This document shows positions 1,655-48,787 of a DNA stretch of 64,000 nucleotides, piece by piece. Where the stretch lies: the NCBI GenBank assembly GCA_025210515.1, contig JAOARM010000042.1, forward strand, positions 62,001-126,000, in the 5' to 3' direction. The DNA is from Vallitalea sp. GTDB lineage: Bacteria; Bacillota; Clostridia; Lachnospirales; Vallitaleaceae. A model generated the notes under the pieces. It ran no database searches, was not told where the DNA came from, and saw only the letters and a list, made by a program, of their open reading frames with translations. A program made the position numbers and the translations under genes. Position 1 is the stretch's first letter. The number at the start of each line of letters is the position of its first letter.

Positions 1655-1776
1655 TTTCCGCTCCGAACAATATAGGGTAATATTCCGTCAGCAGTTTAAA
1701 CGTCCGTGTTTAAACTGCTGACCTCGCCGTCCGTGGCTCGTGCTCCATATTACCCTATATTATTCTACGCTCGGCT
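1655..1776. repeat. Nested-palindrome dispersed element, copy 1
   Basis: Intergenic structured element. The outer arms are perfect 15-bp inverted repeats (1669-1683 and 1747-1761). Inside them is a second perfect 15-bp hairpin (1687-1701 and 1708-1722) with a 6-nt loop. An unpaired 24-nt segment (1723-1746, CTCGCCGTCC...CGTGCTCC) follows the inner hairpin. A second copy with different stem sequences lies at 48583-48701. It is clearly more GC-rich than the flanks and has no ORF. It may be a REP/MITE-like mobile palindrome or a structured RNA; the sequence alone does not decide. Confidence 0.8.
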
Positions 1777-48532: not shown

Positions 48533-48565
48533 AAGGACAGCTTGATAGCTGTCCTTTTAAATTTA
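48533..48565 (+). terminator. Rho-independent terminator
   Basis: A perfect 10-bp stem AAGGACAGCT (48533-48542) and AGCTGTCCTT (48547-48556) with a tetraloop, followed by a short T-rich stretch. Confidence 0.85.
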
Positions 48566-48582
48566 ATTAAGATATAATTAAG

Positions 48583-48701
48583 CGTTCGCTCCAAATGTAT
48601 AGGGTAATATTCCGTCAGCTAATTAATCGTCCTGATTAAAACAGCTGACCTCGCCGTCCTGGCTCGTGCTCCATATTACCCTATACATTTTCCGCTGGGC
48701 T
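48583..48701. repeat. Nested-palindrome dispersed element, copy 2
   Basis: Outer arms are perfect 18-bp inverted repeats (48593-48610 and 48673-48690). The inner stem is GTCAGCT (48614-48620) with AGCTGAC (48643-48649), partly extended by AATTAATC/GATTAAAA. The unpaired segment CTCGCCGTCC...CGTGCTCC (48650-48672) differs from copy 1 (1723-1746) by one missing base. It sits between a terminator and the radA ribosome binding site and holds no gene. Confidence 0.8.
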
Positions 48702-48787
48702 AGTATATTTTCATTTGTCTTGTGTTATTTCATGGTATGGTATCACAAGACGATTAGATTGATGGATAAGTTGAAGGGGGAGAAATT

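Follow-up and report, generated by a model that had tools for sequence, protein, structure and literature searches.

A dispersed mobile palindrome of Vallitalea with conserved loops and variable stems, and its probable kinship with TwoAYGGAY

Two intergenic segments of the window (the whole stretch of 64,000 nucleotides that was analysed, from the Vallitalea genome designated G000) raise the question of what kind of element fixes its loops and leaves its stems free. Copy 1 lies between a DegV-family gene and a NERD-domain gene, and copy 2 between an unassigned ORF and a radA-like gene. A first-pass annotation of the DNA had seen in the pair the pattern of selection or mobility acting on structure, and this reading stands: the stems differ yet pair, and the loops are 94–97% identical. 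Its candidates were a REP/MITE-like palindrome moved in trans and a structured RNA. The explanation that we favour, with moderate confidence, is a non-autonomous dispersed mobile palindrome, REP- and ERIC-like in behaviour, whose loops would be CsrA sites when the minus strand is transcribed. The genus is represented by six genomes, that of the window (G000) and others, among them G001, G002, G004 and G005.

Fixed loops and free stems

The nested hairpins that had been read by eye, with outer stems of 15 bp and 18 bp, are well supported by folding. Copy 1 folds at -47.1 kcal/mol (z -7.55) and copy 2 at -43.9 kcal/mol (z -7.14), and for each copy 0 of 200 dinucleotide shuffles equalled the value. 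On the plus strand both have the same layout (Table 1): P1 left arm, TCC, P2 hairpin, CTC, P3 mini-hairpin, TCGTGCTCC, P1 right arm. In P2 and P3 alike the loop is C[GTCC(N)T]G, which on the minus strand reads C[A(N)GGAC]G. As the annotation said, the inner hairpin is unlike in sequence between the two copies and its pairing is retained. The segment to its right is near-identical in both, as claimed, but it is not wholly unpaired: it contains P3, with the same loop as P2.

Table 1. Features of the two window copies (positions in the window; P1, outer stem; P2 and P3, inner hairpins)
Feature	Positions	Strand	Basis and detail
Copy 1, whole element	1655–1783	- (strand with GGA loops)	R1 match 1654–1784, plus frame, 144.5 bits
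Copy 1, P1 left arm	1669–1683		Fold; 15 bp; GAA 1665–1667 gives 3 extra pairs
Copy 1, P1 right arm	1747–1761		Fold; TTC 1763–1765 pairs with 1665–1667
Copy 1, P2 hairpin	1687–1722		Fold; 15 bp stem; loop 1702–1707 GTCCGT (minus: ACGGAC)
Copy 1, P3 hairpin GCC-GTCCGT-GGC	1726–1737		Fold; loop 1729–1734 (minus: ACGGAC)
Copy 1, conserved unpaired right junction TCGTGCTCC	1738–1746		Fold; 74% mean identity across subfamilies
Copy 2, whole element	48583–48709	-	R1 match 48582–48709, 151.7 bits; orthologous site in G004 empty
Copy 2, P1 left arm	48593–48610		Fold; 18 bp
Copy 2, P1 right arm	48673–48690		Fold; 18 bp
Copy 2, P2 hairpin	48614–48649		Fold; 7 + 6 bp with internal loop; loop 48629–48633 GTCCT (minus: AGGAC)
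Copy 2, P3 hairpin GCC-GTCCT-GGC	48653–48663		Fold; loop 48656–48660 (minus: AGGAC)
Intrinsic terminator-like hairpin of the gene upstream of copy 2	48533–48556	+	Copy 2 lies downstream of the terminator

The two copies are far from alone. A blastn search of their own genome found 43 copies, and a covariance model (R1) built from 30 of the copies in this genome found 45 strong copies in its 3.5 Mb, together with about 17 others of a second type whose loops are mostly those of the first and whose stems are not. The annotation, which knew of two copies only, had proposed such a search of the genome and its relatives, and had taken a family of just two copies with no homologues as the outcome that would speak against it; copies are instead abundant. 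Both orientations are found, and there are tandem arrays (three copies on contig C42, about 170 bp apart) and inverted pairs (L153, L154, L049/L097). Both window copies lie between genes, as had been claimed, and in none of 80 contexts examined does a copy lie inside an ORF. The element is present in all six Vallitalea genomes, with only two copies found in G002. A second model (R2), built from diverse copies, matched 16 genomes among 392 of the order: the six of Vallitalea, and others that come from three more genera of the same family and from three additional families. In these relatives beyond the genus the stems are unrelated in sequence, but each has P1, P2 and the loops, and most have P3 too. 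An exact-pattern scan of named genomes gave no match outside one Vallitalea MAG, and a search of phage and plasmid collections gave none. One locus in genome G055 (L241:1501-1978) holds three tandem copies with a 175-bp period, each unit having a short GGAATAGC...GCTATTCC hairpin and a T-run.

Identity across subfamilies is 52% for P1, 97% for the P2 loop and 94% for the P3 loop; despite the 52% identity, the outer stem stays paired (98.8%). Among the copies of the window's own genome (n=30), double changes were found in 9 pairs, against 2.6 in shuffles. Among diverse copies (n=30), 95% of pair cells were standard and 27 of 29 pairs had double changes, while slid controls gave 34–48%. Pairing is thus kept through stem change, as the annotation held, and changes that destroy pairing are not the rule. 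The P2 loop core RTCC (GGA on the minus strand) was found in 121 of 122 Vallitalea copies and the GGA core of P3 in about 110 of 117 parsed copies; across P2 and P3 the minus-strand loops are ACGGAC, AUGGAC or AGGAC.

The changes in P1 are nearly all double, with one G-U in about 500 P1 cells of the diverse alignment (A5) against well over 100 switched Watson-Crick cells. In 119 Vallitalea copies P1 comprised 2344 Watson-Crick pairs, 15 G-T, 30 A-C and 11 other mismatches. An RNA stem is expected to tolerate G-U and not A-C. In the outer stem G-T and A-C mismatches are of like number, unlike a stem selected as RNA, which counts against the explanation that we favour; this near parity suggests that the stems are kept perfect at the DNA level, for example by correction in a hairpin intermediate. 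We also considered G-U against A-C mismatches as a guide to the strand that matters; the minus strand was favoured at first, but wider data brought the two counts close together (about 108 v 75 in a pooled, pseudo-replicated set), and the guide is weak.

Such pairing bears on an alternative that we consider possible though unlikely, that of a selfish palindrome acting purely as DNA. A transposase or another enzyme that acts on single strands would recognise its loops, much as happens in REP/RAYT or IS200/IS605 systems; the loops would be unrelated to CsrA, and the RNA family to which we relate it below (RF01731) would have been misread as RNA. In P1, 97–99% of pairs are Watson-Crick and G-U is very rare, as would be expected if mismatches were corrected in hairpin DNA; P2 repeatedly shows an unpaired A on its 3′ side, reminiscent of the bulges that some REP transposases need. 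This alternative, however, leaves the ANGGA-type loops, the strand bias of GGA and the enrichment in genomes with CsrA without a reason.

Probable kinship with TwoAYGGAY and a possible link to CsrA

An Rfam scan of the window at gathering scores returned only a TPP riboswitch (RF00059, 2699–2798, 69.5 bits), which lies upstream of a likely thiamine-transport-type membrane gene. A match to RF02098 at 1820–1872 was set aside, as this is a human lncRNA family and the match is below its cut-off. The link to TwoAYGGAY (RF01731) emerged through distant relatives: two loci found by R2 (L243 and L245) match RF01731 at 59.9 and 56.3 bits, above the cut-off of 43, at the same place and on the R2 minus strand. 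One Vallitalea copy (L062) also passes, at 46.1 bits. In the reverse direction, R2 picks up RF01731 loci of other families, five of them at E below 1e-4. Copy 1 itself stays under the gathering score of 43: its minus-strand match at 1652–1780 has 32.9 bits (E 0.0026 for 601 bp). Copy 2 is absent among the RF01731 matches listed.

As RF01731 requires, the closing stem of the element encloses two adjacent hairpins whose terminal loops are of AYGGAY type. It is also like TwoAYGGAY, whose loops are of AYGGAY or ANGGAY form, in being clostridial and multi-copy, with at least seven copies in some genomes; of 391 Clostridia genomes, 32 have RF01731 itself, often at seven or more copies. We conclude with high confidence that the element is a divergent Vallitalea branch of a TwoAYGGAY superfamily; the window copies differ from the family in falling below the Rfam cut-off, so that the assignment rests on the matches of their siblings rather than on a curated hit. 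The structured-RNA candidate of the annotation is borne out to this extent, that the element is related to a catalogued RNA candidate.

The sections on TwoAYGGAY in the 2010 report (Weinberg, PMC2864571) describe it as a probable RNA that is unlikely to be cis-regulatory, and those in a 2014 paper (PMC4333381) propose it as a CsrA-binding RNA; a dispersed mobile repeat whose subfamilies have unrelated stems, as in Vallitalea, is not described in those sections of either paper. Rfam places RF01731 in a clan with CsrB. CsrA/RsmA proteins bind ANGGAN loops, and a 5-nt GGA loop as well (PMC3791407). The loops of the element fit this definition of an ANGGAN hexaloop or 5-nt GGA loop, and the sites are paired. 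The minus strand has 4.8 GGA per copy, the plus strand 0.66.

All 16 carriers found by R2 encode CsrA, against 225 of 392 genomes of the order. At the class level CsrA was found in 22 of 27 RF01731 carriers and in 15 of 53 non-carriers (Fisher 1.1e-5), and by genus in 15 of 16 carrier and 12 of 45 non-carrier genera, the controls being a sample that is unmatched for motility, genome size and phylogeny; the co-occurrence may reflect any of these. Five RF01731 carriers had no CsrA match, four of them genomes that are 80–95% complete and belong to genera having CsrA-positive members. What is new here is that the element is a dispersed mobile repeat and that carriers encode CsrA far more often than the sampled non-carriers, which gives the 2014 idea a genome-wide co-occurrence test. 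Whether CsrA binding is the reason why the loops are conserved seems to us an evenly balanced question; that the loops serve CsrA is a plausible proposal, unproven and better supported now than before.

Two adjacent ANGGA hairpins would suit a CsrA dimer, and together with the CsrA co-occurrence, the 2014 proposal and the CsrB clan they could point to a simpler account, in which the copies are sponge sRNA genes like CsrB or RsmZ that are often duplicated, and RNA function alone keeps structure and loops. The CsrB/CsrC/RsmY/RsmZ sponges do resemble the element in their paired GGA motifs in hairpin loops. They are, however, few expressed sRNA genes per genome, whereas the element occurs as dozens of mobile copies that lack evident promoters. 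Dozens of copies with unrelated stems, the near absence of G-U, the empty sites and composite copies described below, a GGA strand that is antisense to genes in G000, and the lack of a GGA-strand promoter or terminator near the window copies all tell against such genes, and we consider this account improbable.

Mobility and likeness to other repeats

The annotation had suggested a check for empty sites, and two were found. At the locus of copy 2, genome G004 has 71 bp between the matched parts, against 215 bp in G000, with flanks 79–83% identical; a second site is occupied in G001 and vacant in G004. No target-site duplication could be fixed at the empty sites, the flanks being too diverged to place the junction. 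In the closer pair G001 and G005 (about 94–97% identical), comparable sites were occupied in both. One orthologous site of this pair (L077 in G005, L178 in G001) has flanks about 94% identical and elements far more diverged, which suggests that the element was replaced or converted. A 134-bp stretch adjoining an element in G001 (L176:7955-8089) is absent from G005.

At least four copies in G004 (among them L222, L229, L230 and L231), plus truncated ones, carry the same MITE-like insert of about 120 bp, with GGTCACTGAAAAAC inverted ends, at the same place in the P2 loop, and the P1 stems of these composite copies differ from each other with compensation. Most simply, the insert would have arrived once, and the composite unit would then have spread. 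Copies in G001 and G005 bear a different insert. With its copy number, its empty sites and composites amplified as units, the element behaves as a dispersed mobile palindrome, a conclusion that is well supported. We regard mobility within Vallitalea as highly probable, and mobility of the superfamily outside the genus as likely.

An autonomous form with an internal gene was sought through half-matches, and the sole gene-bearing insert found was an IS in P3 with ends and a target-site duplication of its own. This 1.66-kb IS (DDE_Tnp_1 transposase of 457 aa; ends CAATGTCATTAAGTTAAG; 10-bp duplication GTCCATGGCT) lies inside P3 of two element copies (L226:4926-6630 and L228:5144-6850, on G001:C1 near 367.9 and 1547.0 kb). 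As it occupies the identical spot in two different copies, it appears to target the repeat.

The element is like REP/REPIN sequences in being a short intergenic palindrome with many copies, arranged singly, inverted or in tandem, with a hairpin thought to be recognised in trans, and in that an IS appears to target it (compare ISPpu9, PMC8450116). REPs are defined by a hairpin of 20–40 bp and a terminal GTAG (or CGTC) tag (PMC3733652). The element is nested and about 130 bp long (up to about 230 bp), no GTAG tag was identified in it, and its CGTC sits in the loops rather than at the ends. A search for a Y1/RAYT transposase (PF01797, Y1_Tnp) found none in G000 (94.8% complete) or in G004, while control profiles matched, and across the genus Y1 and copy number run opposite: Y1_Tnp is commonest in G002, where two copies were found, and absent from copy-rich G000 and G004. 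REP proper was therefore rejected on the lack of a RAYT match in G000, size, end tag and this opposite trend. The lack of a Y1 HUH enzyme in G000 and G004 also counts against the purely DNA-level palindrome. No enzyme that could move the element was found, which weighs on the favoured explanation as well. In G001, one element (L163) lies near a Y1 locus.

ERIC sequences are imperfect palindromes of about 127 bp between genes, with no known transposase, that form a sequence-conserved family. The element resembles them as a large intergenic palindrome and differs in that its stems diverge fully, with loops fixed across families of the order.

A conventional MITE, mobilised by a DDE transposase that acts on terminal inverted repeats, would have conserved arms, and the inverted arms here are the least conserved part (P1 52%, loops 94–97%). 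Subfamilies C and D do have extra outer inverted repeats that resemble such termini (e.g. GGGGCTGTCTTATAATACA), yet these too vary between copies with pairing kept, no target-site duplication was seen, and the arms are wholly different between subfamilies while the loops are fixed; we consider a DDE-moved MITE very improbable. The first candidate of the annotation thus holds as a dispersed mobile palindrome and fails as REP proper or classic MITE, given variable arms and no Y1/RAYT. Since this class of mobile element fixes its loops and frees its stems, its presumed recognition rule, structure and not sequence, can be read from an alignment.

Strand, neighbouring genes and proposed mechanism

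In G000 the plus strand of the element is co-oriented with the neighbouring genes (34 v 5, p 2e-6), so that the GGA (minus) strand is antisense, and it follows the leading strand as judged by GC skew (44 v 9). In the complete genome G001, GC skew puts the origin and terminus near 2.43 and 5.35 Mb; there 39 of 52 copies have the plus strand opposed to the fork (p 4e-4), and the gene orientation is reversed (24 -- against 10 ++). Orientation to genes and to replication is thus strongly biased in both genomes, but opposite.

The non-random fork orientation in G001 would fit the purely DNA-level palindrome, as in transposons that use lagging-strand ssDNA, and so would the inconsistency of gene orientation; the opposite fork orientation of G000 would not. 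Most copies in G000 lie close behind a co-oriented gene, often 0–70 bp past its stop codon, as expected of a 3′-UTR element that acts in cis on the plus strand as terminator or mRNA stabiliser. We find this scarcely credible, as the orientation is reversed in G001, copy 2 sits after a terminator, and no T-run follows P1.

Across 27 clostridial genomes, the GGA strand was not co-oriented with genes (++ 8, -- 11), which makes a role as cis-regulatory leader unlikely in general; convergent sites outnumbered divergent ones 7 to 1. Near either window copy the GGA strand showed neither a promoter-like nor a terminator-like site. With an antisense GGA strand (34 v 5) and no promoter-like site on it near these copies, an RNA step within G000 is unsupported.

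For the mobile palindrome with CsrA-type loops that we favour, the following course may be proposed. Single-stranded DNA, or minus-strand RNA, would fold so that P1 closes and P2 and P3 are presented with the same loop. The folded hairpin would be copied and inserted elsewhere by an enzyme acting in trans, which would read structure and not stem sequence. If the minus strand is RNA, the two GGA loops could bind the two halves of a CsrA dimer, and the copies might then act as CsrA decoys or place neighbouring transcripts under CsrA.

More tentatively, and with less than even confidence, TwoAYGGAY as a whole might be a Clostridia-wide superfamily of mobile nested hairpins that spread by a mechanism which reads structure and that carry paired CsrA sites, selfish repeats that titrate or tap a global regulator. 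RF01731 would then be reread as a repeat that spreads, rather than as a riboregulator with few genes, and, if the CsrA link is true, mobile DNA has supplied sites for a global regulator across Clostridia.

Just upstream of radA, in G001 and G005 (L233/L234), lies a glycosyl-phosphate-transferase-like gene that is MraY/WecA-like by eye; it is intact in G001 and G002, and G005 has internally deleted remnants of it.
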